DNA of 64,000 nt from positions 45,003,313 to 45,067,312 of the forward strand of contig CM046855.1 in NCBI GenBank assembly GCA_025617745.1. The letters run 5' to 3'. Positions 12,253 to 37,233 of this stretch are shown piece by piece. The notes beneath the pieces were generated by a model that was given only the letters and a program-made list of their open reading frames with translations, was not told the origin of the DNA and ran no database searches. A program made the translations under genes and the position numbers. This stretch comes from Heliocidaris erythrogramma (Eukaryota; Echinodermata; Echinoidea; Camarodonta; Echinometridae). Each line of letters begins with the position of its first letter. Within the stretch, counting starts at the first letter, position 1.

Positions 12253-12510
12253 AAGAATCAATGGATTGGCAGCATTCTAGTGAAAAGTTCCTTTACAGAT
12301 AAAACTCAATAGAGGACACTCCCCCTAAAAAGACAATATCCACACCCCAGGATCTGAGTTCAGACTTAGAAAACCTAAGGATTTCAGATGACAATCACAT
12401 GGAATTAGTGTGATTTGCATCAGTAACCCGAGAGTGAAAACGTGAGCGGCTGCGTACCATGCAGTGAGCATAGTGCGCATGCTGTCTTCCGTATCAACTC
12501 GTCTAGCCTA
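12253..12510 (+). pseudogene. Array gene copy 0, 5'-truncated
   Basis: Starts in the second repeat of the protein (ESMDWQHSSEKFLYR), has an in-frame stop where copies 1-5 encode Gln, then follows the array gene through its stop codon and about 90 bp of 3' sequence. The match ends abruptly at about 12505 and joins spacer A0. It marks the upstream edge of the array and is much closer to copies 1-5 than the relics at 1.9, 6.3 and 9.1 kb. Confidence 0.8.
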
Positions 12511-13369
12511 GAAATACCTACACGCACAAGTGCCTACACGATAGGCCAATAGAAATTGAAGGAGGCAGACATAATCTGAAGAAGAAGAAGAAGAAGAAGG
12601 GAGGCTAAGGCGTTCTTCTACCGGGTGCCTACCATTCCCATGCCGGCAGGCCAGGCGGGGTGAAGAGGTAGTGGTCACCTCGAATTTCAGCTGCCTTTTG
12701 AAAATTGCCATTAGCAGTTCTAAACGACCTCGATTCGAGACAAAAGGGCCCACAACCGCAACGGTGCCTCGGTCTTCCAATCGAAGAGGAACAAAAAATC
12801 TGGAGGTATCCAAATCCCATTGACTTGCCTGTTATTAGGGGCAAAAACAGAGGGGGTTCTTGCTTCCCAATTATAGTGGTCCACGTGCTGAAGGGAGCAC
12901 TCGGTGTTCGTCTACCGGGACGCTGGCCATTCCCAGGCCGCTGGGTAAGGCCGAGGCGGGGGCTTGAAATACCTTCTTTCAAATTTTCTGCAGTCTCGGC
13001 TAAGACGACGGCCCTGCTCGTCCCGCATTGGCGGCATTCTGCAGGTCACCTCAGCGTTCCGTACCCGTGCCGGAGCTCCTGGCCGCCGCGGTCGCTCTTC
13101 GGAAGTAACGTTACCGTAATTCCAAGCAATCAACTTGTCTATGAAAAGAGTGCCGGAATATAGAAAATCCACGACATACAACCACCCGAACTAAATCCAC
13201 TTTATTTACCGGATAAACACAATTTATGACGTTACATTTTGCTTGAAAGAGAAATGTGAAAGATGACTGTCATGTTGTTACAGTCAAATGGTAAATTTGG
13301 TTTAGCCGGTCAAACAATTTGGCCGGTACGTTGTTTTATTATTGATTGAAATACAGGGTTGTATATATG
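12511..13369 (+). repeat. Array spacer A0 (5'-shortened)
   Basis: The first spacer module lacks the C-tract half and starts at GAAATACCTACACG, with a short local duplication of CCTACACG. It then has a (GAA)n run near 12577-12599, two related GC-rich halves (each opening with a TCTACCGGG...CCATTCCCA motif, at about 12616 and 12910), and an end with two GCCGGT boxes and TATATATG. None of its three long overlapping frames begins with ATG, so I read it as non-coding. Confidence 0.8.
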
Positions 13370-14434
13370 CAATATGAATGCAATGCAGCTCCAACACCTG
13401 TCAAAGCATATTATCATAATATCCAGACATCACCACCATCATTGGCGTTACTGGTGGGGGTGGGCTTATTCCACGCCCCGCCACTTCTACACCCCCCCCC
13501 CCCCCCCCAAGCAAATAGGGGGAAATGAAATACCTACACGATAGGCCAATAGAAACTGAAGGAGGCAGACATAATCTGAAGAAGAAGAAGAAGGGAGGCT
13601 AAGGCGTTCTTCTACCGGGTGCCTACCATTCCCATGCCGGCAGGCCAGGCGGGGTGAAGAGGTAGTGGTCCCCTCGAATTTCAGCTGCCTTTTGAAAATT
13701 GCCATTAGCAGTTCTAAACGACCTCGATTCGAGACAAGAGGGCCCACAACCGCAACGGTGCCTCGGTCTTCCAATCGAAGAGGAACAAAAAATTTGGAGG
13801 TATCCAAATCCCATTGACTTGCCTGTTATGAGGGGCAAAAACAGAGGGGGTTCTTGCTTCCCAATTATAGAGGTCCACGTGCTGAAGGGAGCACTCGGTG
13901 TTCGTCTACCGGGACGCTGGCCATTCCCAGGCTGCTGGGTAAGGCCGAGGCGGGGGCTTGAAATACCTTCTTTCAAATTTTCTGCAGCCTCGGCTAAGAC
14001 GACGGCCCTGCTCGTCCCGCATTGGCGGCATTCTGCAGGTCACCTCAGCGTTCCGTAACCGCGCCGGAGCTCCTGGCCGCCGCGGTCGCTCTTCGGAAGT
14101 AACGTTACCGTAATTCCAAGCAATCAACTTGTCTATGAAAAGAGTGCCGGAATATAGAAAATCCACGACATACAACCACCCGAACTAAATCCATTTTATT
14201 TACCGGATAAACACAATTGATGACGTTACATTTTGCTTGAAAGAGAAATGTGAAAGATGACTGTCATTTTGTTACACTTACAGTCAAATGGTAAATTTGG
14301 TTTAGCCGGTAAAATAATTTAGCCGGTCAAACAATTTAGCCGGTCAAACAATTTAGCCGGTCAAACAATTCAGCCGGTCAAACAATAATATTTAGCCGGT
14401 ACATTGTTTTATTATTGATTGAAATACACGGTTG
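13370..14434 (+). repeat. Array spacer A1 (full, gene-proximal type)
   Basis: Full module in order: a stretch of about 120 bp before a C-tract (13492-13508), a (GAA)n run, GC-rich half 1, GC-rich half 2, an AT-rich end, then six GCCGGT-type boxes. It has the marker bases of spacers that directly precede a gene copy (GCTGCTGGGTAAGG, AGAGGTCCACG). Confidence 0.85.
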
Positions 14435-14445
14435 TATATAAATAG
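14301..14445 (+). promoter_or_regulatory. Array gene promoter 1: six boxes plus TATA
   Basis: Six GCCGGT-type boxes spaced mostly 17 bp apart (unit TTTAGCCGGTCAAACAA) at 14301-14400, then ATTGTTTTATTATTGATTG and a TATA box, TATATAAATA (14435-14444). The start codon is 94 bp beyond the TATA box, leaving a leader of about 65-70 nt. Within the unit, AACAAT fits an HMG/Sox core and TCAAACA resembles a forkhead half-site. Both are guesses from short words. Confidence 0.65.
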
Positions 14446-14537
14446 ATGAAGACATTAAATTTTTGTTTAGAAACGCAATAGACACTGTAGCTGCTTGTAC
14501 ATGTACAATATACCGAGACTTAAGGAAAATTAAACAG

Positions 14538-14861
14538 ATGGAGTTGGTAGACAATGTTGAAGATATGGAATGGCAACATTCGATTGAGGAGAATTGCCAA
14601 TGCCAATATTTGACTACGTCATCCACTGCCCACCAAACAGCAACTCTTTCGCCCAAACCCCTCAGTTTAGACGTGGACTCTCAGAAACTTTCAAACGCGG
14701 AAGAGTCAATGGATTGGCAGCATTTTAGTGAAGAGTTCCTTTACAGGCAAAACTCAATAGACGACACTCCGCCTAAAAAGACAACATCCACACCCCAAGA
14801 TCTGAGTTCCGACTTAGAAAATCTAAAGATTTCAGATGACGATCCCATGGAATTAGTGTGA
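14538..14861 (+). CDS. Array gene copy 1, 107-aa acidic protein, unrecognised
   Basis: First ATG (CAGATGGAG context) downstream of a TATA box; upstream in-frame sequence has no ATG. The product has no signal peptide or membrane segment and is rich in Ser, Asp and Glu. It contains an internal duplication: EDMEWQHSIEENCQCQYL (about 8-25) and ESMDWQHFSEEFLYRQ (about 56-71), each followed by a Ser/Thr/Pro-rich stretch (SPKPLSLD; DTPPKKTTSTP). It opens with MELV and closes with DDDPMELV. I do not recognise the family. The two WQH repeats could form amphipathic helices of a binding motif, which is inference. A good donor (CAA|GTGAGT, 14991) and acceptor (TTGTCTTCAG, ending 15115) lie 3' of the stop. 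Confidence 0.65.
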   Translation: MELVDNVEDMEWQHSIEENCQCQYLTTSSTAHQTATLSPKPLSLDVDSQKLSNAEESMDWQHFSEEFLYRQNSIDDTPPKKTTSTPQDLSSDLENLKISDDDPMELV

Positions 14862-15400: not shown

Positions 15401-16384
15401 ATGAATGCAGTGCAGCTCCAACACTTCTCAAGCATAATATCCAGATATCACCACCATCATTGGCGTTACTGGTGGGGGTGGGCCTATTCCACGCCCCGCC
15501 ACTTCTACACCCCCCCCCCCCACCCCCAATCAAATAGGGGGAAATGAAATACCTACACGATAGGCCAATAGAAACTGAAGGAGGCAGACATAATCTGAAG
15601 AAGAAGAAGAAGAAGGGAGGCTAAGGCGTTCTTCTACCGGGTGCCTACCATTCCCATGCCGGCAGGCCAGGCGGGGTGAAGAGGTAGTGGTCACCTCGAA
15701 TTTCAGCTGCCTTTTGAAAATTGCCATTAGCAGTTCTAAACGACCTTGATTCGAGACAAGAGGGCCCACAACCGCAACGGTGCCTCGGTCTTCCAATCGA
15801 AGAGGAACAAAAAATTTGGAGGTATCCAAATCCCATTGACTTGCCTGTTATGAGGGGAAAAAACAGAGGGGGTTCTTGCTTCCCAATTATAGTGGTCCAC
15901 GTGCTGAAGGGAGCACTCGGTGTTCGTCTACCGGGAGGCTGGCCATTCCCAGGCCGCTGGGTAAGGCCGAGGTGGGGGCTTGAAATACCTTCTTTCAAAT
16001 TTTCTGCAGCCTCGGCTAAGATGACGGCCCTGCTCGTCCCGCATTGGCGGCATTCTGCAGGTCACCTCAGCGTTCCGTACCCGCGCCGGAGCTCCTGGCC
16101 GCCGCGGTCGCTCTTCGGAAGTAACGTTACCGTAATTCCAAGCAATCAACTTGTCTATGAAAAGAGTGCCGGAATATAGAAAATCCACGACATACAACCA
16201 CCCGAACTAAATCCACTTTATTTACCGGATAAACACAATTTATGACGTTACATTTTGCTTGAAAGAGAAATGTGAAAGATGACTGTCATGTTGTTACAGT
16301 CAAATGGTAAATTTGGTTTAGCCGGTCAAACAATTTAGCCGGTACGTTGTTTTATTATTGATTGAAATACAGGGTTGTATATAT
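15401..16384 (+). repeat. Array spacer A2 (full)
   Basis: Full module following gene copy 1. It carries the non-proximal marker bases (GCCGCTGGGTAAGGCCGAGGTGG, read as two overlapping words) and ends with only two boxes and TATATATG. C-tract near 15511-15523. Confidence 0.85.
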
Positions 16385-17277
16385 GCAATATGAATGCAAT
16401 GCAGCTCCAACACCTGTCAAAGCATATTATCATAATATCCAGACATCACCACCATCATTGGCGTTCTTGGTGGGGGTGGGCTTATTCCACGCCCCGCCAC
16501 TTCTACACCCCCCCCCCCCCCCCACCCCCAAGCAAATAGGGGGAAATGAAATACCTACACGATAGGCCAATAGAAACTGAAGGAGGCAGACATAATCTGA
16601 AGAAGAAGAAGAAGAAGGGAGTCTAAGGCGTTCTTCTACCGGGTGCCTACCATTCCCATGCCGGCAGGCCAGGCGGGGTGAAGAGGTAGTGGTCACCTCG
16701 AATTTCAGCTTCCTTTTGAAAATTGCCATTAGCAGTTCTAAACGACCTCGATTCGAGACAAGAGGGCCCACAACCGCAACGGTGCCTCGGTCTTCCAATC
16801 GAAGAGGAACAAAAAATTTGGAGGTATCCAAATCCCATTGACTTGCCTGTTATGAGGGGCAAAAACAGAGGGGGTTCTTGCTTCCCAATTATAGTGGTCC
16901 ACGTGCTGAAGGGAGCACTCGGTGTTCGTCTACCGGGACGCTGGCCATTCCCAGGCCGCTATTTACTATATTACTTCCGAAGAGCTCCTGGCCGCCGCGG
17001 TCGCTCTTCGGAAGTAACGTTACCGTAATTCCAAGCAATCAACTTGTCTATGAAAAGAGTGCCGGAATATAGAAAATCCACGACATACAACCACCCGAAC
17101 TAAATCCACTTTATTTACCGGATAAACACAATTTATGACGTTACATTTTGCTTGAAAGAGAAATGTGAAAGATGACTGTCATGTCGTTACAGTCAAATGG
17201 TAAATTTGGTTTAGCCGGTCAAACAATTTAGCCGGTACGTTGTTTTATTATTGATTGAAATACAGGGTTGTATATAT
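16385..17277 (+). repeat. Array spacer A3 (short, hairpin variant)
   Basis: About 120 bp of the second GC-rich half are missing and replaced by CTATTTACTATATTACTTCC. This creates a perfect 15-bp inverted repeat, TTACTTCCGAAGAGC at 16971-16985 and its complement at 17003-17017. It ends with two boxes. Confidence 0.85.
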
Positions 17278-18359
17278 GCAATATGAATGCAATGCAGCTC
17301 CAACACCTGTCAAAGCATATTATCATAATATCCAGACATCACCACCATCATTGGCGTTACTGGTGGGGGTGGGCTTATTCCACGCCCCGCCACTTCTACA
17401 CCCCCCCCCCCCCCCCCAGCAAATAGGGGGAAATGAAATACCTACACGATATGCCAATAGAAACTGAAGGAGGCAGACATAATCTGAAGAAGAAGAAGAA
17501 GGGAGGCTAAGGCGTTCTTCTACCGGGTGCCTACCATTCCCATGCCGGCAGGCCAGGCGGGGTGAAGAGGTAGTGGTCACCTCGAATTTCAGCTGCCTTT
17601 TGAAAATTGCCATTAGCAGTTCTAAACGACCTCGATTCGAGACAAGAGGGCCCACAACCCGCAACGGTGCCTCGGTCTTCCAATCGAAGAGGAACAAAAA
17701 ATTTGGAGGTATCCAAATCCCATTGACTTGCCTGTTATGAGGGGCAAAAACAGAGGGGTTCTTGCTTCCCAATTATAGAGGTCCACGTGCTGAAGGGAGC
17801 ACTCGGTGTTCGTCTACCGGGACGCTGGCCATTCCCAGGCTGCTGGGTAAGGCCGAGGCGGGGGCTTGAAATACCTTCTTTCAAATTTTCTGCAGCCTCG
17901 GCTAAGACGACGGCCCTGCTCGTCCCGCATTGGCGGCATTCTGCAGGTCACCTCAGCGTTCCGTACCCGCGCCGGAGCTCCTGGCCGCCGCGGTCGCTCT
18001 TCGGAAGTAACGTTACCGTAATTCCAAGCAATCAACTTGTCTATGAAAAGAGTGCCGGAATATAGAAAATCCACGACATACAACCACCCGAACTAAATCC
18101 ATTTTATTTACCGGATAAACACAATTGATGACGTTACATTTTGCTTGAAAGAGAAATGTGAAAGATGACTGTCATGTTGTTACACTTACAGTCAAATGGT
18201 AAATTTGGTTTAGCCGGTCAAATAATTTAGCCGGTCAAACAATTTAGCCGGTCAAACAATTTAGCCGGTCAAACAATTTAGCCGGTCAAACAATTTAGCC
18301 GGTCAAACAATAATATTTAGCCGGTACATTGTTTTATTATTGATTGAAATACACGGTTG
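17278..18359 (+). repeat. Array spacer A4 (full, gene-proximal type)
   Basis: Full module with gene-proximal marker bases and the largest box cluster (seven). A small indel in the first GC-rich half (CACAACCCGC) is shared with A9 and A11. Confidence 0.85.
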
Positions 18360-18369
18360 TATATAAATA
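18209..18369 (+). promoter_or_regulatory. Array gene promoter 2: seven boxes plus TATA
   Basis: Seven GCCGGT-type boxes, most in perfect 17-bp register, then TATATAAATA at 18360-18369. It has the largest box number in the array; the sequence from the last box to the TATA box is identical to promoter 1. Confidence 0.65.
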
Positions 18370-19323: not shown

Positions 19324-20309
19324 ATGAATTCAGTGCAGCTCCAACACTTCTCAAGCATAATATCCAGATATCACCACCATCATTGGCGTTACTGGTGGGG
19401 GTGGGCCTATTCCACGCCCCGCCACTTCTACACCCCCCCCCCCCCCCACCCCCAAGCAAATAGGGGGAAATGAAATACCTACACGATAGGCCAATAGAAA
19501 CTGAAGGAGGCAGACATAATCTGAAGAAGAAGAAGAAGAAGGGAGGCTAAGGCGTTCTTCTACCGGGTGCCTACCATTCCCATGCCGGCAGGCCAGGCGG
19601 GGTGAAGAGGTAGTGGTCACCTCGAATTTCAGCTGCCTTTTGAAAATTGCCATTAGCAGTTCTAAACGACCTTGATTCGAGACAAGAGGGCCCACAACCG
19701 CAACGGTGCCTCGGTCTTCCAATCGAAGAGGAACAAAAAATTTGGAGGTATCCAAATCCCATTGACTTGCCTGTTATGAGGGGAAAAAACAGAGGGGGTT
19801 CTTGCTTCCCAATTATAGTGGTCCACGTGCTGAAGGGAGCACTCGGTGTTCGTCTACCGGAGGCTGGCCATTCCCAGGCCGCTGGGTAAGGCCGAGGTGG
19901 GGGCTTGAAATACCTTCTTTCAAATTTTCTGCAGCCTCGGCTAAGATGACGGCCCTGCTCGTCCCGCATTGGCGGCATTCTGCAGGTCACCTCAGCGTTC
20001 CGTACCCGCGCCGGAGCTCCTGGCCGCCGCGGTCGCTCTTCGGAAGTAACGTTACCGTAATTCCAAGCAATCAACTTGTCTATGAAAAGAGTGCCGGAAT
20101 ATAGAAAATCCACGACATACAACCACCCGAACTAAATCCACTTTATTTACCGGATAAACACAATTTATGACGTTACATTTTGCTTGAAAGAGAAATGTGA
20201 AAGATGACTGTCATGTTGTTACAGTCAAATGGTAAATTTGGTTTAGCCGGTCAAACAATTTAGCCGGTACGTTGTTTTATTATTGATTGAAATACAGGGT
20301 TGTATATAT
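19324..20309 (+). repeat. Array spacer A5 (full)
   Basis: Full module after gene copy 2. A one-base shortening (CTACCGGAGGC) fuses two minus-strand frames into a 183-aa frame at 19571-20122. That frame starts at a non-ATG codon, so I treat the fusion as accidental. Shared with A7. Confidence 0.85.
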
Positions 20310-21202
20310 GCAATATGAATGCAATGCAGCTCCAACACCTGTCAAAGCATATTATCATAATATCCAGACATCACCACCATCATTGGCGTTCCTGGTGGGG
20401 GTGGGCTTATTCCACGCCCCGCCACTTCTACACCCCCCCCCCCCCCCCACCCCCAAGCAAATAGGGGGAAATGAAATACCTACACGATAGGCCAATAGAA
20501 ACTGAAGGAGGCAGACATAATCTGAAGAAGAAGAAGAAGAAGGGAGTCTAAGGCGTTCTTCTACCGGGTGCCTACCATTCCCATGCCGGCAGGCCAGGCG
20601 GGGTGAAGAGGTAGTGGTCACCTCGAATTTCAGCTTCCTTTTGAAAATTGCCATTAGCAGTTCTAAACGACCTCGATTCGAGACAAGAGGGCCCACAACC
20701 GCAACGGTGCCTCGGTCTTCCAATCGAAGAGGAACAAAAAATTTGGAGGTATCCAAATCCCATTGACTTGCCTGTTATGAGGGGCAAAAACAGAGGGGGT
20801 TCTTGCTTCCCAATTATAGTGGTCCACGTGCTGAAGGGAGCACTCGGTGTTCGTCTACCGGGACGCTGGCCATTCCCAGGCCGCTATTTACTATATTACT
20901 TCCGAAGAGCTCCTGGCCGCCGCGGTCGCTCTTCGGAAGTAACGTTACCGTAATTCCAAGCAATCAACTTGTCTATGAAAAGAGTGCCGGAATATAGAAA
21001 ATCCACGACATACAACCACCCGAACTAAATCCACTTTATTTACCGGATAAACACAATTTATGACGTTACATTTTGCTTGAAAGAGAAATGTGAAAGATGA
21101 CTGTCATGTCGTTACAGTCAAATGGTAAATTTGGTTTAGCCGGTCAAACAATTTAGCCGGTACGTTGTTTTATTATTGATAGAAATACAGGGTTGTATAT
21201 AT
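20310..21202 (+). repeat. Array spacer A6 (short, hairpin variant)
   Basis: Same replacement as A3, with inverted arms at 20896-20910 and 20928-20942. Nearly identical to A3 overall. Confidence 0.85.
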
Positions 21203-22191
21203 GCAATATGAATGCAATGCAGCTCCAACACCTGTCAAAGCATATTATCATAATATCCAGACATCACCACCATCATTGGCGTTACTGGTGGGGGTGGGCT
21301 TATTCCACGCCCCGCCACTTCTACACCCCCCCCCCCCCAAGCAAATAGGGGGAAATGAAATACCTACACGATAGGCCAATAGAAACTGAAGGAGGCAGAC
21401 ATAATCTGAAGAAGAAGAAGAAGGGAGGCTAAGGCGTTCTTCTACCGGGTGCCTACCATTCCCATGCCGGCAGGCCAGGCGGGGTGAAGAGGTAGTGGTC
21501 CCCTCGAATTTCAGCTGCCTTTTGAAAATTGCCATTAGCAGTTCTAAACGACCTCGATTCGAGACAAGAGGGCCCACAACCGCAACGGTGCCTCGGTCTT
21601 CCAATCGAAGAGGAACAAAAAATTTGGAGGTATCCAAATCCCATTGACTTGCCTGTTATGAGGGGCAAAAACAGAGGGGGTTCTTGCTTCCCAATTATAG
21701 TGGTCCACGTGCTGAAGGGAGCACTCGGTGTTCGTCTACCGGAGGCTGGCCATTCCCAGGCCGCTGGGTAAGGCCGAGGTGGGGGCTTGAAATACCTTCT
21801 TTCAAATTTTCTGCAGCCTCGGCTAAGATGACGGCCCTGCTCGTCCCGCATTGGCGGCATTCTGCAGGTCACCTCAGCGTTCCGTACCCGCGCCGGAGCT
21901 CCTGGCCGCCGCGGTCGCTCTTCGGAAGTAACGTTACCGTAATTCCAAGCAATCAACTTGTCTATGAAAAGAGTGCCGGAATATAGAAAATCCACGACAT
22001 ACAACCACCCGAACTAAATCCACTTTATTTACCGGATAAACACAATTTATGACGTTACATTTTGCTTGAAAGAGAAATGTGAAAGATGACTGTCATGTTG
22101 TTACAGTCAAATGGTAAATTTGGTTTAGCCGGTCAAACAATTTAGCCGGTACGTTGTTTTATTATTGATTGAAATACAGGGTTGTATATAT
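21203..22191 (+). repeat. Array spacer A7 (full, mosaic)
   Basis: The first half resembles gene-proximal spacers (GGTCCCCTCGAATTTC), the second half resembles A5, including its one-base shortening. This mosaic pattern suggests exchange between spacer types. Confidence 0.8.
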
Positions 22192-23078
22192 GCAATATGA
22201 ATGCAATGCAGCTCCAACACCTGTCAAAGCATATTATCATAATATCCAGACATCACCACCATCATTGGCGTTCCTGGTGGGGGTGGGCTTATTCCACGCC
22301 CCGCCACTTCTACACCCCCCCCCCCACCCCCAAGCAAATAGGGGGAAATGAAATACCTACACGATAGGCCAATAGAAACTGAAGGAGGCAGACATAATCT
22401 GAAGAAGAAGAAGAAGAAGGGAGGCTAAGGCGTTCTTCTACCGGGTGCCTACCATTCCCATGCCGGCAGGCCAGGCGGGGTGAAGAGGTAGTGGTCACCT
22501 CGAAATTCAGCTTCCTTTTGAAAATTGCCATTAGCAGTTCTAAACGACCTCGATTCGAGACAAGAGGGCCCACAACCGCAACGGTGCCTCGGTCTTCCAA
22601 TCGAAGAGGAACAAAAAATTTGGAGGTATCCAAATCCCATTGACTTGCCTGTTATGAGGGGCAAAAACAGAGGGGGTTCTTGCTTCCCAATTATAGTGGT
22701 CCACGTGCTGAAGGGAGCACTCGGTGTTCGTCTACGGGACGCTGGCCATTCCCAGGCCGCTATTTACTATATTACTTCCGAAGAGCTCCTGGCCGCCGCG
22801 GTCGCTCTTCGGAAGTAACGTTACCGTAATTCCAAGCAATCAACTTGTCTATGAAAAGAGTGCCGGAATATAGAAAATCCACGACATACAACCACCCGAA
22901 CTAAATCCACTTTATTTACCGGATAAACACAATTTATGACGTTACATTTTGCTTGAAAGAGAAATGTGAAAGATGACTGTCATGTCGTTACAGTCAAATG
23001 GTAAATTTGGTTTAGCCGGTCAAACAATTTAGCCGGTACGTTGTTTTATTATTGATTGAAATACAGGGTTGTATATAT
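22192..23078 (+). repeat. Array spacer A8 (short, hairpin variant)
   Basis: Third short module, arms at 22772-22786 and 22804-22818. It has a small private change near 22735 (CTACGGGACG). Confidence 0.85.
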
Positions 23079-24108
23079 GCAATATGAATGCAATGCAGCT
23101 CCAACACCTGTCAAAGCATATTATCATAATATCCAGACATCACCACCATCATTGGCGTTACTGGTGGGGGTGGGCTTATTCCACGCCCCGCCACTTCTAC
23201 ACCCCCCCCCCCCCAAGCAAATAGGGGGAAATGAAATACCTACACGATAGGCCAATAGAAACTGAAGGAGGCAGACATAATCTGAAGAAGAAGAAGAAGG
23301 GAGGCTAAGGCGTTCTTCTACCGGGTGCCTACCATTCCCATGCCGGCAGGCCAGGCGGGGTGAAGAGGTAGTGGTCCCCTCGAATTTCAGCTGCCTTTTG
23401 AAAATTGCCATTAGCAGTTCTAAACGACCTCGATTCGAGACAAGAGGGCCCACAACCCGCAACGGTGCCTCGGTCTTCCAATCGAAGAGGAACAAAAAAT
23501 TTGGAGGTATCCAAATCCCATTGACTTGCCTGTTATGAGGGGCAAAAACAGAGGGGGTTCTTGCTTCCCAATTATAGAGGTCCACGTGCTGAAGGGAGCA
23601 CTCGGTGTTCGTCTACCGGGACGCTGGCCATTCCCAGGCTGCTGGGTAAGGCCGAGGCGGGGGCTTGAAATACCTTCTTTCAAATTTTCTGCAGCCTCGG
23701 CTAAGACGACGGCCCTGCTCGTCCCGCATTGGCGGCATTCTGCAGGTCACCTCAGCGTTCCGTACCCGCGCCGGAGCTCCTGGCCGCCGCGGTCGCTCTT
23801 CGGAAGTAACGTTACCGTAATTCCAAGCAATCAACTTGTCTATGAAAAGAGTGCCGGAATATAGAAAATCCACGACATACAACCACCCGAACTAAATCCA
23901 TTTTATTTACCGGATAAACACAATTGATGACGTTACATTTTGCTTGAAAGAGAAATGTGAAAGATGACTGTCATGTTGTTACACTTACAGTCAAATGGTA
24001 AATTTGGTTTAGCCGGTCAAATAATTTAGCCGGTCAAACAATTTAGCCCGGTCAAACAATAATATTTAGCCGGTACATTGTTTTATTATTGATTGAAATA
24101 CACGGTTG
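23079..24108 (+). repeat. Array spacer A9 (full, gene-proximal type)
   Basis: Full module before gene copy 3, with the smallest gene-side box cluster (four). Confidence 0.85.
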
Positions 24109-24211: not shown

Positions 24212-24532
24212 ATGGAGTTGGTAGACAATGTTGAAGATATGGAATGGCAACATTCGATTGAGGAGAATTGCCAATGTCAATATTTGACTACGTCATCCAC
24301 TGCCCACCAAACAGCAACTCTTTCGCCCAAACCCCTCAGTTTAGACGTGGACTCTCAGAAACTTTCAAACGCGGAAGAGTCAATGGATTGGCAGCATTTT
24401 AGTGAAGAGTTCCTTTACAGGCAAAACTCAATAGACGACACTCCGCCTAAAAAGACAACATCCACACCCCAAGATCTAAGTTCCGACTTAGAAAATCTAA
24501 AGATTTCAGATGACGATCCCATGGAATTATAG
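24212..24532 (+). CDS. Array gene copy 3, 106-aa variant
   Basis: Identical to the other copies except at the end, where two extra bases create GAATTATAG. The protein ends DDDPMEL and lacks the final Val. It shares two synonymous differences (TGT for Cys in CQCQ; CTA for Leu in DLSS) with copy 5 but not with copies 1, 2 and 4. The frame otherwise stays open. Confidence 0.6.
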   Translation: MELVDNVEDMEWQHSIEENCQCQYLTTSSTAHQTATLSPKPLSLDVDSQKLSNAEESMDWQHFSEEFLYRQNSIDDTPPKKTTSTPQDLSSDLENLKISDDDPMEL

Positions 24533-27105: not shown

Positions 27106-27115
27106 TATATAAATA
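26989..27115 (+). promoter_or_regulatory. Array gene promoter 4: five boxes plus TATA
   Basis: Five boxes, two of them degenerate (GCCGGG and GGCGGT), then TATATAAATA at 27106-27115. Confidence 0.6.
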
Positions 27116-27208: not shown

Positions 27209-27532
27209 ATGGAGTTGGTAGACAATGTTGAAGATATGGAATGGCAACATTCGATTGAGGAGAATTGCCAATGCCAATATTTGACTACGTCATCCACTGC
27301 CCACCAAACAGCAACTCTTTCGCCCAAACCCCTCAGTTTAGACGTGGACTCTCAGAAACTTTCAAACGCGGAAGAGTCAATGGATTGGCAGCATTTTAGT
27401 GAAGAGTTCCTTTACAGGCAAAACTCAATAGACGACACTCCGCCTAAAAAGACAACATCCACACCCCAAGATCTGAGTTCCGACTTAGAAAATCTAAAGA
27501 TTTCAGATGACGATCCCATGGAATTAGTGTGA
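27209..27532 (+). CDS. Array gene copy 4, 107-aa acidic protein
   Basis: Same protein as copies 1 and 2. Upstream, CATGAACAA replaces CATGTACAA and interrupts the in-frame upstream extension seen in other copies, yet the 107-aa frame is unaffected. This supports the ATG at 27209 as the true start. Confidence 0.65.
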   Translation: MELVDNVEDMEWQHSIEENCQCQYLTTSSTAHQTATLSPKPLSLDVDSQKLSNAEESMDWQHFSEEFLYRQNSIDDTPPKKTTSTPQDLSSDLENLKISDDDPMELV

Positions 27533-28066: not shown

Positions 28067-29049
28067 GATGAATGCAGTGCAGCTCCAACACTTCTCAAGC
28101 ATAATATCCAGATATCACCACCATCATTGGCGTTACTGGTGGGGGTGGGCCTATTCCACGCCCCGCCACTTCTACACCCCCCCCCCCCCACCCCCAAGCA
28201 AATAGGCGGAAATGAAATACCTACACGATAGGCCAATAGAAACTGAAGGAGGCAGACATAATCTGAAGAAGAAGAAGAAGAAGGGAGGCTAAGGCGTTCT
28301 TCTACCGGGTGCCTACCATTCCCATGCCGGCAGGCCAGGCGGGGTGAAGAGGTAGTGGTCACCTCGAATTTCAGCTGCCTTTTGAAAATTGCCATTAGCA
28401 GTTCTAAACGACCTCGATTCGAGACAAGAGGGCCCACAACCGCAACGGTGCCTCGGTCTTCCAATCGAAGAGGAACAAAAAATTTGGAGGTATCCAAATC
28501 CCATTGACTTGCCTGTTATGAGGGGAAAAAACAGAGGGGGTTCTTGCTTCCCAATTATAGTGGTCCACGTGCTGAAGGGAGCACTCGGTGTTCGTCTACC
28601 GGGACGCTGGCCATTCCCAGGCCGCTGGGTAAGGCCGAGGTGGGGGCTTGAAATACCTTCTTTCAAATTTTCTGCAGCCTCGGCTAAGACGACGGCCCTG
28701 CTCGTCCCGCATTGGCGGCATTCTGCAGGTCACCTCAGCGTTCCGTACCCGCGCCGGAGCTCCTGGCCGCCGCGGTCGCTCTTCGGAAGTAACGTTACCG
28801 TAATTCCAAGCAATCAACTTGTCTATGAAAAGAGTGCCGGAATATAGAAAATCCACGACATACAACCACCCGAACTAAATCCACTTTATTTACCGGATAA
28901 ACACAATTTATGACGTTACATTTTGCTTGAAAGAGAAATGTGAAAGATGACTGTCATGTCGTTACAGTCAAATGGTAAATTTGGTTTAGCCGGTCAAACA
29001 ATTTAGCCGGTACGTTGTTTTATTGATTGAAATACAGGGTTGTATATAT
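28067..29049 (+). repeat. Array spacer A12 (full), interrupted at its 3' end
   Basis: Full module after gene copy 4. Its final TATATAT word is split by the LTR element at 29050. The array resumes at 34747 with a 4-bp duplication (ATAT). Confidence 0.85.
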
Positions 29050-29913
29050 TGTAACGAACCTGTGCTAAATATTTTAGCACTATCCTGTAGTAATGGATGG
29101 GTATAAGTAACAGCACATCCGCTATAACGTGTAGACCAATGGGGATTGCAACGTATCGGTATAGGTACTGCTTAATGAAGGAAAATTAGCATAATTCGCA
29201 TATTCAAATTATATGGGGGGTTTGTCATGACTAATTTTGATAGATTATTTGTTGGACAAGTTATCTGGACGGGAATCAGTGGTTACATTTGATAATTCAG
29301 TCGGGGTTATATTGTTTTAAGCGAAAGTGTTGTTTTTACTAACTGTTTTCACAATGATTTGTCATATGGGTAAATATTGGAATACAAATTGTGTATGGGA
29401 GGATTATGTGCTTAGGACTAGCCATCACATTGTATCCGCCCCCTGAGTAGCCCGATCAATCTCACCGAGATTTGGCTTCCACCCTGTAACCTGTACTCTT
29501 GTGTTGCCTAAAGGTAATGATTAAACATGCTTTTCAACTGAAAATGATGGTTCCAGACTGTACTAATTCCTTTGCATAATTAGTTCAATTGATTAATTAA
29601 CATTATAGGGCTTCGAAAGACGATGAATGCTAATGAATGATCTTCAATAGAGTGACTGATTGTTCGAAGGATGATCAATTGTCTGCTGCTGTGCCGAGGC
29701 GAGAAGGGTGATCAATTGAAATCGACGGATGGGTGATTGCTGTTAGATCTGGTGGTGAGCAGTACCTGACGGTTGGTGATGGTTGTATGCCGGTAACTCC
29801 AGCCATCAGCAGCGGTCATATATTTTGACCAAACGGACGGGGAGCTCGGCAAGGCACGGGGCATCCTGACAAGATTGCCGTGTCACCTGGCGTGGCGAAC
29901 CGTGGCCGTTACA
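29050..29913 (+). repeat. 5' LTR
   Basis: 864 bp, TG...CA ends extended to a 6-bp inverted TGTAAC/GTTACA. Almost identical to 33890-34746. Confidence 0.9.
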
Positions 29914-29915
29914 CG

Positions 29916-29934
29916 TGGTGTCAGGAGTGGGATT
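29916..29934 (+). other. Primer-binding site, tRNA-Leu type
   Basis: TGGTGTCAGGAGTGGGATT begins two bases after the 5' LTR and is complementary to the 3' end expected of a tRNA-Leu, a primer used by many Ty3/gypsy elements. Confidence 0.75.
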
Positions 29935-29952
29935 GCTGACGGTCTGGAGTAT

Positions 29953-30842
29953 AAAGGCAGAGCTGGTAGGCGACGGGCAGCAGAACTGACTGCGTCTAGG
30001 CTAGGCAGAGCTGGTGGGCGACGGGCAGCAGAACTGGTGGGCGACGGGCAGCAGAACTGACGGCGTCACAGCTAAGGCAGAGCTGGTGGGCGACGGGCAG
30101 CAGAACTGACGGCGTCACAGCTAAGGCAGAGCTGGTGGGCGACGGGCAGCAGAACTGACGGCGTCACAGCTAAGGCAGAGCTGGTGGGCGACGGGCAGCA
30201 GAACTGACGGCGTCACAGCTAAGGCAGAGCTGGTGGGCGACGGGCAGCAGAACTGACGGCGTCACAGCTAAGGCAGAGCTGGTGGGCGACGGGCAGCAGA
30301 ACTGACGGCGTCACAGCTAAGGCAGAGCTGGTGGGCGACGGGCAGCAGAACTGACGGCGTCACAGCTAAGGCAGAGCTGGTGGGCGACGGGCAGCAGAAC
30401 TGACGGCGTCACAGCTAAGGCAGAGCTGGTGGGCGACGGGCAGCAGAACTGACGGCGTCACAGCTAAGGCAGAGCTGGTGGGCGACGGGCAGCAGAACTG
30501 ACGGCGTCACAGCTAAGGCAGAGCTGGTGGGCGACGGGCAGCAGAACTGAAGGCGTCACAGCTAAGGCAGAGCTGGTGGGCGACGGGCAGCAGAACTGAC
30601 GGCGTCACAGCTAAGGCAGAGCTGGTGGGCGACGGGCAGCAGAACTGACGGCGTCACAGCTAAGGCAGAGCTTGTGGGCGACGGGCAGCAGAACTGACGG
30701 CGTCACAGCTAAGGCAGAGCTGGTGGGCGACGGGCAGCAGAACTGAAGGCGTCACAGCTAGGCAGAGCTGGTGGGCGACGGGCAGCAGAACTGACGGCAT
30801 CACAGTCAGACAGAGCTGGTGGGCGACGAGCAGCAGAACTGA
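29953..30842 (+). repeat. 49-bp minisatellite in the LTR element leader
   Basis: About 17 copies of a 49-bp unit (GGCAGAGCTGGTGGGCGACG, GGCAGCAGAACTGACGGCGT, CACAGCTAA in order), nearly perfect in the centre and degenerate at both edges. It lies between the primer-binding site and gag. Confidence 0.9.
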
Positions 30843-31067
30843 CGGTGATTGAATACTCGACGGCAGTTGATAATGGAATCTTTACAGACCAAATATGGTT
30901 GTCATCTGTCACCAGCAGAATTGATACAGCAAGTGGAAGGTAACATAACAGCAGTGGATGAGATGCTTGCCGAGTAACAGCGATCGTCAGAAGCACCAAC
31001 ATCACAACCTCGGCCAGAGCAGAGCACTCCACTTTTTCCACATTCTGCTGACACAGGGTTTGTCAGC

Positions 31068-33173
31068 ATGCCGTCATCAGGCATCAAACCGTCAGTAATC
31101 AGCGATGGGGATAGAGTAACATTGTCAGAACCGTCACTTGGACAGGGGAGTGTCGGGGCCAATGCGGCAGTACGGGCGAGGCATGCTGAGAGAAGGGTTC
31201 CAGTTATAGGAAGCTTTGACGGTGTCTATACTGAGATGCCCCAGACAGGAGCAGGCAACTGGCAGAGCCCACGGGTCAGTCCACCCTTTCCCAGACCAAC
31301 TTATTCTGAGCTTCCTAGCTTTAGTATGCGCCAGCAGTTACCACAGGAGTTCCCCATGACGAACGAGGCAGCCCAGGCCCAATATCAGCCACAGTCGCGG
31401 CCAGGCAGTCTTCAGGGAGGGATGTTTCGGCGACCATTGGATGACAGCCATACAAAACCCTACATGCTGCCGGATCGGTTCGATGGGAAAACTCCAATAC
31501 TGGATTACTTGGAGCATTTCGAGGCATGCGCAGTTATCAATAACTGGACGGATAGAAAGGCGACGCACTATCTAGCAGCCAGTCTACGTGGGCCAGCGCT
31601 GAAACTACTGGGGAAGAATGGTGAGACAGAACTGACGTACCGTGACTTGGTCAGTCGGCTCAAACATCGCTTCGGACCTTCAGGAAAAGCTGATGTGTTT
31701 TTGGCTGAACTACGTTCCCGACGAAGAAAGCCACATGAGACTCTTCAAGAACTGGGTCAAAGCATCAGAGACCTGGCGGGGATGGCTTACCAGGAATTCG
31801 ATCCTGATGGACAGGATAAGCTGGCTCGGGGTCATTTTCTGGATGCAATAGTGAATCCGGCGATCCGAGAGGGTTTGTTTCGAGCCCAACCACATACCTT
31901 GGACGAAGCCATCGAAGCAGCTCTAAACACCGAGGCATTCCTTAAGATGGAAACAGAGAGGGGCGAGTTGAAATATTCTCACCGTCACAGCCACAGCCGA
32001 GCTTTGACAGACAGTGGTTGGCCTCAGCCTCATGATAGCGATACATTAGAACTTGTGAGAAAGATGGAGAAAGCGCTAGGTGATCTTACAGCTAGATTGG
32101 AATCACTGACAAGCCAAGTGGGAGGTACGTCACATGGTGGTAACGAAGGACCACACTCCCAGAGGAGACGCCAAGTCGGGGCTTGTTACAATTGTGGTCA
32201 ACTAGGACATTTCTCCCGAAATTGTCCTCACCCTAAGATGCAGTACACACCTGATGGTTCGGAAATTATGGAAGTTGAGAGCAAACGCTGTCACCAATGT
32301 CATGAGGCTGGACACTTCAAGAGGAATTGCCCTCATAACCAAGCTGGTAGGGGAGACTGGGCAGCTAAACACCCTGGTAGGGATACAGGTGATTTGATGT
32401 CAAGCCGTGATCGAACGGCTGAGAACAACAGACAACCAGAAGCTGGGCAAGTGAGAGTAGGCACGACAGAAAGAGTGAAACGCCAAGGACTGTTCATCAA
32501 ATCCAAGATAAATGGGCAGCCTGTGACATTCCTCATCGATACTGGGTCAACGCAGTCGTTCATTACCGACGCCGTTTTCAACAAAATTGAGGAAGCCAGA
32601 AAACCAGTCTTGCAGAGAGTGCCCAATACAATTCATCAGGCTGATGGATCGCCTTTGGACACCATGGGGAGAGCCTCCATGGAGTTGCAGGTTGGAGGTT
32701 TACTCTTCATCGTTGAGATGACAGTTGCCGCTCTTAAGAACGAAGGAATCCTTGGCCTAGATCTCTTGATGCAGATGCATGCCGAATTAGACTGCCACAA
32801 AATGGAACTACGGACGCCATGGCAGTCCATCGCCTGTCAGGACCAAGAAGGCCGAGATTTCTGTTCTCGAGTCGTGGCGAGTGAGACAAGCATTGTCCCT
32901 ACTGGTCATGAGGTAGTACTGAGGGGAGAAGTAACCGGCCGTAACCCTAGCGTCGTTAACCAAGTTGGTTTGTTAGAGCCTCCTCCTAACCCGACGGAGC
33001 TAAGCAGAAAGGGCCTACGGGTAGCAAGAGCCGTGGTTACTGCAGATTCCGGAATTCTGCCAGTGAGAATGTTCAACCCAACCGGGAGAGAGACCACTGT
33101 CAAGAAGGGCACAATGGTGGCCAGTCTCAGCTCAGTCCAGGACCCATCAGATGACACCTTAACAGGTGATTAG
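31068..33173 (+). CDS. gag-protease frame of the LTR element
   Basis: A 701-aa frame. Residues about 138-300 read as a retrotransposon gag core (FDGKTPILDYLEHFEACAV onward). Two CCHC zinc knuckles follow: CYNCGQLGHFSRNC (about 373) and CHQCHEAGHFKRNC (about 408). An aspartic protease signature, FLIDTGSTQSFI, lies at about 488 with the catalytic Asp at about 491, and ILGLDLLM follows near 564. Gag would form the particle and the protease would process it. As part of a non-autonomous element it would need RT and integrase from elsewhere. Confidence 0.85.
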   Translation: MPSSGIKPSVISDGDRVTLSEPSLGQGSVGANAAVRARHAERRVPVIGSFDGVYTEMPQTGAGNWQSPRVSPPFPRPTYSELPSFSMRQQLPQEFPMTNEAAQAQYQPQSRPGSLQGGMFRRPLDDSHTKPYMLPDRFDGKTPILDYLEHFEACAVINNWTDRKATHYLAASLRGPALKLLGKNGETELTYRDLVSRLKHRFGPSGKADVFLAELRSRRRKPHETLQELGQSIRDLAGMAYQEFDPDGQDKLARGHFLDAIVNPAIREGLFRAQPHTLDEAIEAALNTEAFLKMETERGELKYSHRHSHSRALTDSGWPQPHDSDTLELVRKMEKALGDLTARLESLTSQVGGTSHGGNEGPHSQRRRQVGACYNCGQLGHFSRNCPHPKMQYTPDGSEIMEVESKRCHQCHEAGHFKRNCPHNQAGRGDWAAKHPGRDTGDLMSSRDRTAENNRQPEAGQVRVGTTERVKRQGLFIKSKINGQPVTFLIDTGSTQSFITDAVFNKIEEARKPVLQRVPNTIHQADGSPLDTMGRASMELQVGGLLFIVEMTVAALKNEGILGLDLLMQMHAELDCHKMELRTPWQSIACQDQEGRDFCSRVVASETSIVPTGHEVVLRGEVTGRNPSVVNQVGLLEPPPNPTELSRKGLRVARAVVTADSGILPVRMFNPTGRETTVKKGTMVASLSSVQDPSDDTLTGD

Positions 33174-33182
33174 GTAGCTGGG

Positions 33183-33430
33183 GATCCGCCGGACAATAGT
33201 CTAGCAGATGACGAGGTAGCTGGAGATCCGCCAGACAACAGCCTAGCGGGTGACGAGGCAGCTGAAGACTTGCCACATGACAGCCTAGCAGATGACGAGG
33301 AAGCTGGAGATCCGCCAGACAACAGCCTGGTGGGTGACGAGGCAGCTGAAGACTTGCCACATGACAGCCTAGCAGATGACGAGGTAGCTGGAGATCCGCC
33401 AGACGACAGCTTTCCAGTAACTGGTGACAA
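33183..33430 (+). repeat. 42-bp repeats after the protease
   Basis: About six copies of a 42-bp unit that would encode variants of DSLADDEVAGDPPD, an acidic 14-residue repeat. Unusual in Ty3/gypsy elements. Confidence 0.75.
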
Positions 33431-33889
33431 CCCAAGGGGAGATGATCGAGACACTACACAAAAACCTTGCTAGGGCCATTTGAGCCGAACAGTTGAACAC
33501 TTAACACAAGGAGAACTTGAATTGTCGAAAAACGACTTGGTTGTGAACTGTAGTTTTTAGCATGTTGTTGATTTTCATATGTTGTATATAAGCTCGAGTA
33601 GTGCTGTTGACCAGTCGTCATAAGAAAGTGTGACGACGATACAGATGTTTTCATAAGTCGTAAAGGGAAGAATATGTCATAAAAGGTGAATAGTTGATAG
33701 TTCTGTTTGTTTATAAGCCTAGTGATATTTGGAGACGGGTAATGGCAGAAAGCGGGAGATAGAATTGTACGTCGAGAAGTGTTGATCATAATGTTCTACG
33801 TAAGAAAGTGCATGCTGATTTTTGTTTTAAGCTGTCAATAATTGTGGATTTGTTAGCTTGGGGACCAAGCTTGGGAGAGAAGGGGGTCG
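33431..33889 (+). other. Non-coding 3' part of the LTR element
   Basis: No pol-like frame seen. Ends in the purine tract next to the 3' LTR. Confidence 0.7.
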
Positions 33890-34746
33890 TGTAACGAACC
33901 TGTGCTAAATATTTTAGCACTATCCTGTAGTAATGGATGGGTATAAGTAACAGCACATCCGCTATAACGTGTAGACCAATGGGGATTGCAACGTATCGGT
34001 ATAGGTACTGCTTAATGAAGGAAAATTAGCATAATTCGCATATTCAAATTATATGGGGGGTTTGTCATGACTAATTTTGATAGATTATTTGTTGGACAAG
34101 TTATCTGGACGGGAATCAGTGGTTACATTTGATAATTCAGTCGGGGTTATATTGTTTTAAGCGAAAGTGTTGTTTTTACTAACTGTTTTCACAATGATTT
34201 GTCATATGGGTAAATATTGGAATACAAATTGTGTATGGGAGGATTATGTGCTTAGGACTAGCCATCACATTGTATCCGCCCCCTGAGTAGCCCGATCAAT
34301 CTCACCGAGATTTGGCTTCCACCCTGTAACCTGTACTCTTGTGTTGCCTAAAGGTAATGATTAAACATGCTTTTCAACTGAAAATGATGGTTCCAGACTA
34401 ATTCCTTTGCATAATTAGTTCAATTGATTAATTAACATTAGGGCTTCGAAAGACGATGAATGCTAATGAATGATCTTCAATTGAGTGACTGATTGTTCGA
34501 AGGATGATCAATTGTCTGCTGCTGTGCCGAGGCGAGAAGGGTGATCAATTGAAATCGACGGATGGGTGATTGCTGGTAGATCTGGTGGTGAGCAGTACCT
34601 GACGGTTGGTGATGGTTGTATGCCGGTAACTCCAGCCATCAGCAGCGGTCATATATTTTGACCAAACGGACGGGGAGCTCGGCAAGGCACGGGGCATCCT
34701 GACAAGATTGCCGTGTCAGCTGGCGTGGCGAACCGTGGCCGTTACA
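33890..34746 (+). repeat. 3' LTR
   Basis: 857 bp, partner of 29050-29913. It ends GTTACA directly before the duplicated ATAT and spacer A13. Confidence 0.9.
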
Positions 34747-35809
34747 ATATGCAATATGAATGCAATGCAGCTCCAACACCTGTCAAAGCATATTATCATA
34801 ATATCCAGACATCACCACCATCATTGGCGTTACTGGTGGGGGTGGGCTTATTCCACGCCCCGCCACTTCTACACCCCCCCCCCCCCATCCCCCCCCCCCC
34901 AAGCAAATAGGGGGAAATGAAATACCTACACGATAGGCCAATAGAAACTGAAGGAGGCAGACATAATCTGAAGAAGAAGAAGAAGGGAGGCTAAGGCGTT
35001 CTTCTACCGGGTGCCTACCATTCCCATGCCGGCAGGCCAGGCGGGGTTAAGATGTAGTGGTCCCCTCGAATTTCAGCTGCCTTTTGAAAATTGCCATTAG
35101 CAGTTCTAAACGACCTCGATTCGAGACAAGAGGGCCCACAACCGCAACGGTGCCTCGGTCTTCCAATCGAAGAGGAACAAAAAATTTGGAGGTATCCAAA
35201 TCCCATTGACTTGCCTGTTATGAGGGGCAAAAACAGAGGGGGTTCTTGCTTCCCAATTATAGAGGTCCACGTGCTGAAGGGAGCACTCGGTGTTCGTCTA
35301 CCGGGACGCTGGCCATTCCCAGGCTGCTGGGTAAGGCCGAGGCGGGGGCTTGAAATACCTTCTTTCAAATTTTCTGCAGCCTCGGCTAAGACGACGGCCC
35401 TGCTCGTCCCGCATTGGCGGCATTCTGCAGGTCACCTCAGCGTTCCGTAACCGCGCCGGAGCTCCTGGCCGCCGCGGTCGCTCTTCGGAAGTAACGTTAC
35501 CGTAATTCCAAGCAATCAACTTGTCTATGAAAAGAGTGCCGGAATATAGAAAATCCACGACATACAACCACCCGAACTAAATCCATTTTATTTACCGGAT
35601 AAACACAATTGATGACGTTACATTTTGCTTGAAAGAGAAATGTGAAAGATGACTGTCATGTTGTTACACTTACAGTCAAATGGTAAATTTGGTTTAGCCG
35701 GTCAAATAATTTAGCCGGTCAAACAATTTAGCCGGTCAAACAATTTAGCCGGTCAAACAATAATATTTAGCCGGTACATTGTTTTATTATTGATTGAAAT
35801 ACACGGTTG
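34747..35809 (+). repeat. Array spacer A13 (full, gene-proximal type)
   Basis: Resumes exactly where A12 stopped, so the LTR element sits at an A12/A13 junction. The C-tract is interrupted by AT. It is otherwise close to A1 and A11. Confidence 0.85.
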
Positions 35810-35819
35810 TATATAAATA
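35693..35819 (+). promoter_or_regulatory. Array gene promoter 5: five boxes plus TATA
   Basis: Five well-kept boxes, then TATATAAATA at 35810-35819. Confidence 0.65.
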
Positions 35820-35912
35820 GATGAAGACATTAAATTTTTGTTTAGAAACGCAATAGACACTGTAGCTGCTTGTACATGTACAATATACCGAGACTTAAGG
35901 AAAATTAAACAG

Positions 35913-36236
35913 ATGGAGTTGGTAGACAATGTTGAAGATATGGAATGGCAACATTCGATTGAGGAGAATTGCCAATGTCAATATTTGACTACGTCATCCA
36001 CTGCCCACCAAACAGCAACTCTTTCGCCCAAACCCCTCAGTTTAGACGTGGACTCTCAGAAACTTTCAAACGCGGAAGAGTCAATGGATTGGCAGCATTT
36101 TAGTGAAGAGTTCCTTTACAGGCAAAACTCAATAGACGACACTCCGCCTAAAAAGACAACATCCACACCCCAAGATCTAAGTTCCGACTTAGAAAATCTA
36201 AAGATTTCAGATGACGATCCCATGGAATTAGTGTGA
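35913..36236 (+). CDS. Array gene copy 5, 107-aa acidic protein
   Basis: Same protein as copies 1, 2 and 4, but sharing two synonymous changes with copy 3. Without the LTR element it lies about 3.0 kb after copy 4, the same interval as copies 3 to 4. Confidence 0.65.
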   Translation: MELVDNVEDMEWQHSIEENCQCQYLTTSSTAHQTATLSPKPLSLDVDSQKLSNAEESMDWQHFSEEFLYRQNSIDDTPPKKTTSTPQDLSSDLENLKISDDDPMELV

Positions 36237-36777
36237 TTTGCTTGAGTAACCCGAGAGTGAAAACGTGAGCGGCCGCGTACCATGCAGTGTACATAGTGCG
36301 TAATCTGTCTTCCGTATCAACTCGTCCAGTAAACTTTCTCACTTTCTGTCAGCGTCCGAGATCAAGTGAGTGGCTACACTTCGTCCAATTATTGATGGTC
36401 CTGTATTTGCCTAGCTGTGTTCCCGTTTGCCATTCTTCTACGTACGTCATCGTCATCGTTAACGTTTCATCATTCTTGTCTTGTCTTCAGATTACTTTGT
36501 CATCCGATCGTCCCTTTCGGTCCCACCTTAGCCCGGGACTTAGGTATATATTGCCAGCACCCCAGTGCTTCTTGGTGTGACTGTTTGGCAGTGAACTGAT
36601 CTGGTTGTGTTTGTGATGTTCTTGATATCTACAACCTCGACCTCGCTCCAGCTTCATCTCAAAAGGTCGGTTCAACATCTTCCACCCCCCCCCCCCCCCC
36701 CTTTCGCCCGTTAACCTTCTGTAATTCATCGGCTATCGTAACCTCCAATAATATTCAGCAATAGCGACCCACCTGGT

Positions 36778-37233
36778 GATGAATGCAGTGCAGCTCCAAC
36801 ACTTGTCAAGCATAATATCCAGATATCACCACCATCATTGGCGTTACTGGTGGGGTGGGCTTATTCCACCCCCCGCCACTTCTCCCGCTCCCCCCCCCCC
36901 CCCCCCCAGCAAAAAGGAAAAAATGAAATACCTACACGGTAGGCCAATTGCAATTTAAGGAGGCAGACTTCATCTGAAGAAGAACAAGAAGAAGAAGGGA
37001 GCCTACGGCGTTCTTCTACCGGGTGCCTGCCATTCCCAAGCCGGCAGGCCAGGCGGGGTGAAGAGGTAGCGGTCACCTCGAATTTCAGCTGCCTTTCGAA
37101 AATTGCCATTAGGAGTTCTAAACGACCTGGATTCGAGACAAGAGGGCACACAACCGCAACGTTGCCTCGGTTTTCCAATCGAAGAGGAACAGAATATTTG
37201 GAGGTATCCAAATCCTATTGACTTGCGTGTTAT
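36778..37233 (+). repeat. Array spacer A14 (diverged, truncated)
   Basis: Last spacer, clearly more diverged than the rest (several substitutions in the C-tract region, the GAA run and the first GC-rich half). It is cut at 37233 by a foldback element, which ends the array. Confidence 0.8.

Follow-up and report, generated by a model that had tools for sequence, protein, structure and literature searches.

What kind of locus yields a run of almost identical short reading frames set between repeated blocks of DNA, and where do those blocks come from? The question is raised by a stretch of 64,000 nucleotides of the sea urchin Heliocidaris erythrogramma (the window, C3:45003313-45067312 of a genome of 1.064 Gb in 26 contigs), in which five copies of a short frame encoding an acidic protein alternate with spacers of about 1 kb. 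We found that each spacer contains a segment, up to about 415 bp long, with homology to the ribosomal DNA (rDNA) intergenic spacer (IGS) of the same genome. The anatomy of the array and this relation are firm observations. On their basis we consider, with a probability of roughly 0.7, that a lineage-specific short acidic gene was amplified together with a block captured from the rDNA spacer.

Gene copies, spacers and their order

The copies were located by searching the window with the 324-bp frame (blastn) and by comparison of the copies with one another:

14538..14861, + strand: gene copy 1, 107 codons
18463..18786, + strand: gene copy 2, 107 codons, coding sequence (CDS) identical to that of copy 1
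24212..24532, + strand: gene copy 3, shortened to 106 codons by a 2-bp insertion ahead of the stop codon; two synonymous differences
27209..27532, + strand: gene copy 4, 107 codons, same CDS as copies 1 and 2
35913..36236, + strand: gene copy 5, 107 codons, two synonymous differences

A first-pass annotation of the window had described five near-identical frames of 107 codons. The number holds, but the length applies to four copies only, since a 2-bp insertion near the frame end leaves copy 3 one residue shorter (106 aa, ending in MEL instead of MELV). The CDS of copies 1, 2 and 4 are identical across 324 bp, and the only substitutions among the five are two third-position, synonymous differences common to copies 3 and 5. 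Successive genes start 3925, 5749, 2997 and 8704 bp apart, and the last interval becomes 3003 bp when a long terminal repeat (LTR) retrotransposon of 5697 bp and its 4-bp target duplication are subtracted, in agreement with the intervals given earlier.

The order and classes of the spacers were determined from landmark positions and an all-against-all spacer comparison:

12533..13367, + strand: left-edge spacer, 5′ end truncated
13378..14440, + strand: B-type spacer before copy 1
17287-18365, 23088-24114, 26064-27111 and 34760-35815, + strand: other B-type spacers
15405..16383, + strand: A-type spacer after copy 1
19330-20308, 25077-26053 and 28072-29048, + strand: other A-type spacers
16394..17276, + strand: D-type spacer, about 100 bp shorter
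20319-21202 and 22201-23077, + strand: other D-type spacers
21212..22190, + strand: hybrid A/B spacer X, 98.6-99.0% identical to A and B alike
36783..37233, + strand: right-edge spacer, truncated

Between successive complete genes lie 3, 5, 2 and 2 spacers of 0.88-1.08 kb each, which corrects the earlier count of one to five. The classes are position specific: A follows a gene, B precedes a gene and D is a deletion type, with X as a single A/B hybrid. From left to right the array reads edge spacer, B, gene 1, A, D, B, gene 2, A, D, X, D, B, gene 3, A, B, gene 4, A, (LTR element), B, gene 5, edge spacer. The units without a gene retain the promoter region. Identity within classes is at least 99.3% for A, 99.2% for B and 99.7% for D, and about 97-98% between classes; the right-edge spacer is 91-93% identical to the core in ungapped columns, whereas the left-edge spacer is less distinct (96.7-98.3%). 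Because X is equally like A and B, we read it as a recombinant. Exchange of blocks, together with decay at the right edge, would account for the spacer classes, the hybrid and the diverged edge.

Diverged pieces of the gene were also found on the left side of the window:

12253..12506, + strand: gene relic, second half of the frame and 3′ flank, in-frame TAA
9156..9281, + strand: older relic, second-half piece, in-frame TAA
6945..7068, + strand: older relic, second-half piece, frame-breaking gaps
6253..6375, + strand: older relic, middle piece, frame-breaking gaps (blastn match from 6280)
1983..2080, + strand: older relic, first half of the frame, frame-breaking gaps

Position 12253, taken previously as the start of the array, thus belongs to a truncated relic and not to a sixth gene. 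The relics are 77-91% identical to the gene at the DNA level, and the short stretches of those at 1983 and 6253 that match the protein contain no stop; the remaining blastn matches of the frame within the window were chance hits of 10-20 bp. Given relics so diverged, the gene family at this locus is older than its present uniform copies. Copies inside the array are more alike than the right edge and the relics are, which is the pattern of concerted evolution. The array is a higher-order repeat, by all indications shaped by unequal exchange, and the first-pass proposal of a family amplified and homogenised in this way is supported by classes at least 99% alike, the A/B recombinant, the diverged right edge and the older relics.

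Homology between the spacers and the rDNA intergenic spacer

The IGS-homologous segment was present in all 15 spacers, although it is shorter in the D and right-edge units. In one full-length spacer it spans:

28320..28734, + strand: IGS-homologous segment

The description of these units as non-coding spacers had been right in separating units of about 1 kb but had missed that they are not anonymous, part of each being IGS-like. When a D-type spacer was compared with the genome, at least 72 matches were obtained, in the C3 array, at places on contig C17 and as numerous GAA-rich pieces about 40-55 bp long (40 of the 81 first-look candidates were scored, so that the counts are lower bounds). Among the scored matches off C3, those longer than about 55 bp were on C17 only, and three of the C17 matches were spaced 10,319-10,320 bp apart. 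In piece L022 of C17, the spacer-matching repeats occupy 4027-5650, just upstream of small-subunit (SSU) rRNA matches (Rfam RF01960) at 6511-7623 (834.6 bits) and 7798-7937. Because SSU rRNA follows directly, these repeats were identified as the rDNA IGS. The single readable SSU copy on C17 appears to carry small deletions, and much of the remaining C17 rDNA reads N.

An A-type spacer aligned with the IGS over 403 columns at 72% identity. The homologous stretch covers most of one IGS repeat (L020 481-872), and the continuation of the alignment matches a module further along the IGS, to L020 2032. Reciprocally, 2,161 bp of IGS was searched against the 1.06-Gb genome with all 13 candidates scored, and this returned 32 matches: six on C17, the 15 array spacers, 10 second pieces within the array and one on C9. 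The IGS and the array spacers are 70-73% identical, with E values from 1.3e-57 to 1.1e-22; the C9 piece (C9:42635391-42635531, in L051) is 141 bp long and 88% like the rDNA IGS. In this reciprocal search, at the sensitivity of the search tool, IGS-like DNA outside the rDNA was thus confined to the array, apart from the C9 piece. The array lies on C3 and thus outside the rRNA gene cluster, the SSU rRNA having been found on C17; within the window, no Rfam match at the gathering score was obtained, and none in a tRNA scan.

One might suppose instead that a mobile or simple repeat entered the IGS and the array independently, so that the array owes nothing to rDNA. The scattering of the GAA-rich spacer piece (about 40-55 bp) over many contigs and the lone C9 piece would fit such a history; a mobile repeat, however, should be dispersed, and the C9 piece is the only other carrier of the homologous stretch found in the genome, while the homology runs through most of an IGS repeat and on into a later module. 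We therefore regard an independent entry as quite improbable.

Satellites derived from the IGS and located outside rDNA are described for tomato, potato, tobacco and legumes (PMC2679016). Like them, the array contains tandem DNA with significant homology to IGS subrepeats of the same genome, away from rRNA genes. Those satellites are described as blocks (PMC2679016), whereas the array is not made of satellite blocks alone, its spacers alternating with a repeated 107-codon frame bearing a TATA box. The IGS-derived stretch stands roughly 300-790 bp upstream of the TATA. IGS repeats in rDNA stand upstream of 18S, and the layout of the array recalls this, the comparison being with the position of 18S and not with the rRNA promoter. 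The first-pass annotation had named a match of the frames to a known transposon or satellite as one finding that would overturn its view; the frames gave no such match, although a known repeat is matched by the spacers.

Probable coding character of the frame and its candidate promoter

The product is an acidic protein of 107 aa (isoelectric point 4.1), probably mostly disordered, and no intron is visible in the frame. It consists of an internal duplication, namely two copies of a motif repeat of about 46 residues with E-x-M-[ED]-W-Q-H-x-x-E-E in its first part and L-S-x-D-[VL] ... K-[LI]-S in its second. Alignment of the two halves scored 65 against a shuffle mean of 23, and none of 5000 shuffles reached this score, whereas the other two forward frames scored 25 and 24, values reached by 168 and 84 of 1000 shuffles. 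The halves, compared over 45 codons by NG86, gave a nonsynonymous divergence (dN) of 0.54, with a synonymous divergence (dS) that was not computable and presumably saturated. Both CDS substitutions among the copies are synonymous, which is weak evidence alone as it concerns two sites only. Because the duplication is absent from the other forward frames and both substitutions are synonymous, the frame is likely a gene and probably a real orphan gene. We infer that it is transcribed and translated.

Each gene is preceded by a candidate promoter, illustrated for copy 1:

14437..14444, + strand: TATAAATA (TATA)
14301..14386, + strand: 17-bp tandem repeat TTTAGCCGGTCAAACAA, upstream of the TATA
14501..14533, + strand: 10-codon upstream frame that stops 4 bp short of the ATG

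TATAAATA occurs at -101 to -94 from the ATG in all five copies, just where the first-pass annotation had placed a TATA box 94 bp upstream. Equivalents of the TTTAGCCGGTCAAACAA repeat stand before the other genes at 18209, 24008, 26989 and 35693, with a copy number that varies by gene. Examination of three spacer-only promoter regions gave 1-2 occurrences of AGCCGG, against 3-7 before the five genes, indicating that the 17-bp repeat was expanded at gene promoters. The repeat also contains AACAAT, which to us recalls Sox sites. The 10-codon frame is kept in all five copies, with one residue changed in copy 4.

Several results weigh against a coding gene amplified along with an IGS piece. Two of the three antisense frames also gave high half-against-half scores (44 and 56, reached by none of 1000 shuffles), as mirrored codons might give, and the DNA of the two halves is slightly more alike than chance (best match 27 bp, reached by 11 of 1000 shuffles). 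Two ATGs lie upstream of the start, one of which opens the 10-codon frame. Within 3.5 kb downstream of copy 1 there is no AATAAA, nor any ATTAAA ahead of the 5′ leader of the next gene. The TATA region is no closer to the sequence preceding 18S than expected by chance (213 of 1000 shuffles). Among 13 spacers, moreover, the IGS-derived segment varied at 23 of 415 sites, compared with 13 of 164, 1 of 80 and 10 of 226 in the other spacer parts; as it is no more conserved than these, it bears no sign of function. When edge and core spacers were compared site by site, the edge was nearer the IGS at 11 sites, the core at 7 and neither at 12, a split that does not discriminate between the two.

The protein was then compared with known families. 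In Pfam, nothing exceeded the cut-off, and only PF02827 was reported at E up to 1. Two matches to PDB sequences at E up to 10 were at chance level (best 0.21, Contactin-1), and none of the stretches fitting the peptide pattern in viral contigs (5) or prokaryote genomes (46) was confirmed; none of these four collections is a good catalogue of animal proteins. Genome-wide, the frame DNA gave 10 matches, all inside the window, and the protein gave 11 at E up to 10, nine of them in the window and two elsewhere with E values of 2.2 and 5.1. At E up to 0.1, the matches were confined to this locus, without the dispersed copies of a transposable element. The earlier statement that the protein resembles none known agrees with the lack of any match above cut-off in Pfam, PDB, the two contig collections and the rest of the genome. 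Structure prediction, which had been proposed as a check, gave a model too poorly determined for a fold search (single-sequence AlphaFold2, mean pLDDT 53.6, pTM 0.20); in this low-confidence model helices were predicted at residues 7-19, 60-72 and 89-95, the first two coinciding with the two motif copies. With PF02827 as the sole Pfam report, the product showed neither the homeodomain of hbox12/pmar1/micro1 nor the casein kinase 2 (CK2) regulatory subunit domain of Stellate, and neither a histone fold nor a histone 3′ stem-loop was indicated by Pfam or Rfam.

PF02827 is the family of the cAMP-dependent protein kinase inhibitor (PKI), of which the protein might be a distant member. The match (E 0.053) aligns residues 70-102 with profile positions 18-50, a segment containing both RQNSIDD and LSSDLENLKI, which could be read as a substrate-like site and an export signal, respectively. 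Nevertheless, its 14.3 bits fall short of the Pfam gathering cut-off of 25, on which ground membership was rejected, and the PKI pseudosubstrate pattern is not kept. No PKI match was found in the genome, but 14 control genomes were equally silent, so this carries little weight. A PKI relationship is thus most improbable.

Origin of the array and its surroundings

If the frames were open by chance and made no protein, the array would be a non-coding higher-order satellite derived from the rDNA spacer. Such satellites are documented in plants (PMC2679016), the 15 spacers outnumber the five frames, the AATAAA signal is lacking downstream of copy 1, and no protein homologue above cut-off was found in Pfam, PDB, the viral and prokaryote collections or the same genome. 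However, a chance frame would not be expected to combine a protein duplication that the other forward frames lack with synonymous CDS substitutions, a canonical TATA at constant distance and a 17-bp repeat expanded at gene promoters. We consider a purely non-coding satellite unlikely. A different proposal concerns what the gene is used for: it may be a selfish or dosage-sensitive gene of the germline or early embryo, whose many copies would be maintained for rapid, abundant expression or for drive. It is short, single-framed, TATA-bearing and tandem, and a second, unrelated array of short acidic genes adjoins it; Pfam, however, gave neither a homeobox nor any other domain above its cut-off. 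Drosophila Stellate, which is casein kinase 2 beta-like, offers one analogy. The echinoid hbox12/pmar1/micro1 clusters likewise comprise small early genes of variable copy number, but these are two-exon homeobox genes, and the rDNA spacer is not mentioned in the available part of PMC5370098. Such a use is a tentative suggestion, and it can be compatible with capture of an rDNA spacer.

Under the capture explanation, a short protein gene would have been joined to a block of rDNA IGS and both then amplified, the IGS having presumably moved from the rDNA to the array locus and not the reverse. The ancestral unit would have comprised promoter, gene, 3′ flank and IGS-derived spacer, and units lacking the gene but carrying the promoter region and spacer would have spread as well. 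Unequal exchange of misaligned units would determine how many spacers (2 to 5) accompany each gene and hold differences within a class to about 1%. Units at the edges, and excluded relics, would decay. RNA polymerase II most likely reads each gene from its own TATA promoter. In rDNA, cis signals located within or close to the spacer maintain copy number. The captured IGS may have supplied repeated homology, possibly with a recombination- or replication-stalling signal, and such input could have let the new gene multiply the way rRNA genes do.

The IGS segment may matter mechanistically. That it actually promoted amplification or expression is rather doubtful. It is likewise speculative that the protein gene took over the copy-number machinery of rDNA, with the IGS as an amplification or recombination element, perhaps an enhancer, so that the same cis signals would both multiply and homogenise the gene. 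Were this true, the extra promoter-bearing spacers would take the role of rDNA spacer promoters, and a new route would exist for orphan genes to become multi-copy. Should the IGS piece suffice for expansion and homogenisation, IGS-driven array formation would become testable outside rDNA, in a setting where changes in copy number do not impair ribosome production.

Partial parallels exist. The rDNA amplification-promoting sequence of tobacco (Borisjuk 2000, as cited in PMC8724763) is likewise an IGS piece whose presence goes with an increased copy number of a linked gene; the tobacco work used transgenes, whereas here the association is natural and known from sequence alone. In Drosophila, Y chromosomes keeping the IGS without most rRNA sequence are described (PMC8794474), and a role in non-random segregation of sister chromatids is reported for the IGS and for Indra, a protein that binds it (PMC9031259). 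Like the array, those Y chromosomes keep IGS repeats without rRNA genes, and unequal sister-chromatid exchange has been proposed at IGS-bearing rDNA, but amplification of a protein gene is not described in the available parts of these sources, and the likeness drawn here is one of description. Among the papers listed in searches of the open-access literature, none described protein-coding genes arrayed with spacers derived from rDNA, which is a weak negative.

Just left of the window, on the minus strand, lies the second tandem array (C3:44973372-44998489; L037, L034, L033), with seven copies of an acidic frame of about 92 aa, one of them broken. Neighbouring copies are 2.3-2.5 or 7.5-7.6 kb apart, and their long repeats are 91-96% alike. 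No Pfam or PDB match was found for the 92-aa protein, and a relationship to the 107-aa protein was rejected (score 29 versus a shuffle mean of 28.7). For one copy, with 70% protein identity, dN and dS were 0.18 and 0.29 by NG86 and 0.21 and 0.22 by maximum likelihood, so that no constraint on it was demonstrated. With this unrelated array next to the first, the locus is a neighbourhood of tandem short acidic genes without known relatives. At least two diverged relatives of the 92-aa gene lie on C9 (L049:8776-9036, that is C9:42424775-42425035, and L050:9666-9938), with E values of 0.79 in the genome-wide search and 1e-7 and 8e-6 in a local search; they share MEF(E/Q)EAM and GEEDMEID. The 141-bp IGS-like piece on C9 is about 210 kb from these relatives.

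The window also contains the following features:

29050-34746, + strand: LTR retrotransposon, 5697 bp, inserted in the spacer that follows copy 4, at its TATA
47337-48016 and 51210-51907: broken reverse transcriptase frames (PF00078)
54613-58103: direct and inverted repeats of several hundred bp that form one family, 93-98% alike
59196-60508: tandem array of units of about 156 bp with the motif GGATTTCGTTCAAATTTTG
7286-7948: tandem arrays of units of about 53 and 107 bp, rich in AAGTCGACTTGA

The LTR element is flanked by 4-bp ATAT target copies inside a spacer, indicating that it was inserted later than the array and is not part of it. Its LTRs are 98.8% identical over 864 columns, the long frame scanned (31068-33173) matches zinc-knuckle and aspartyl-protease families, and 16.7 copies of a 49-bp repeat occupy 30028-30845.

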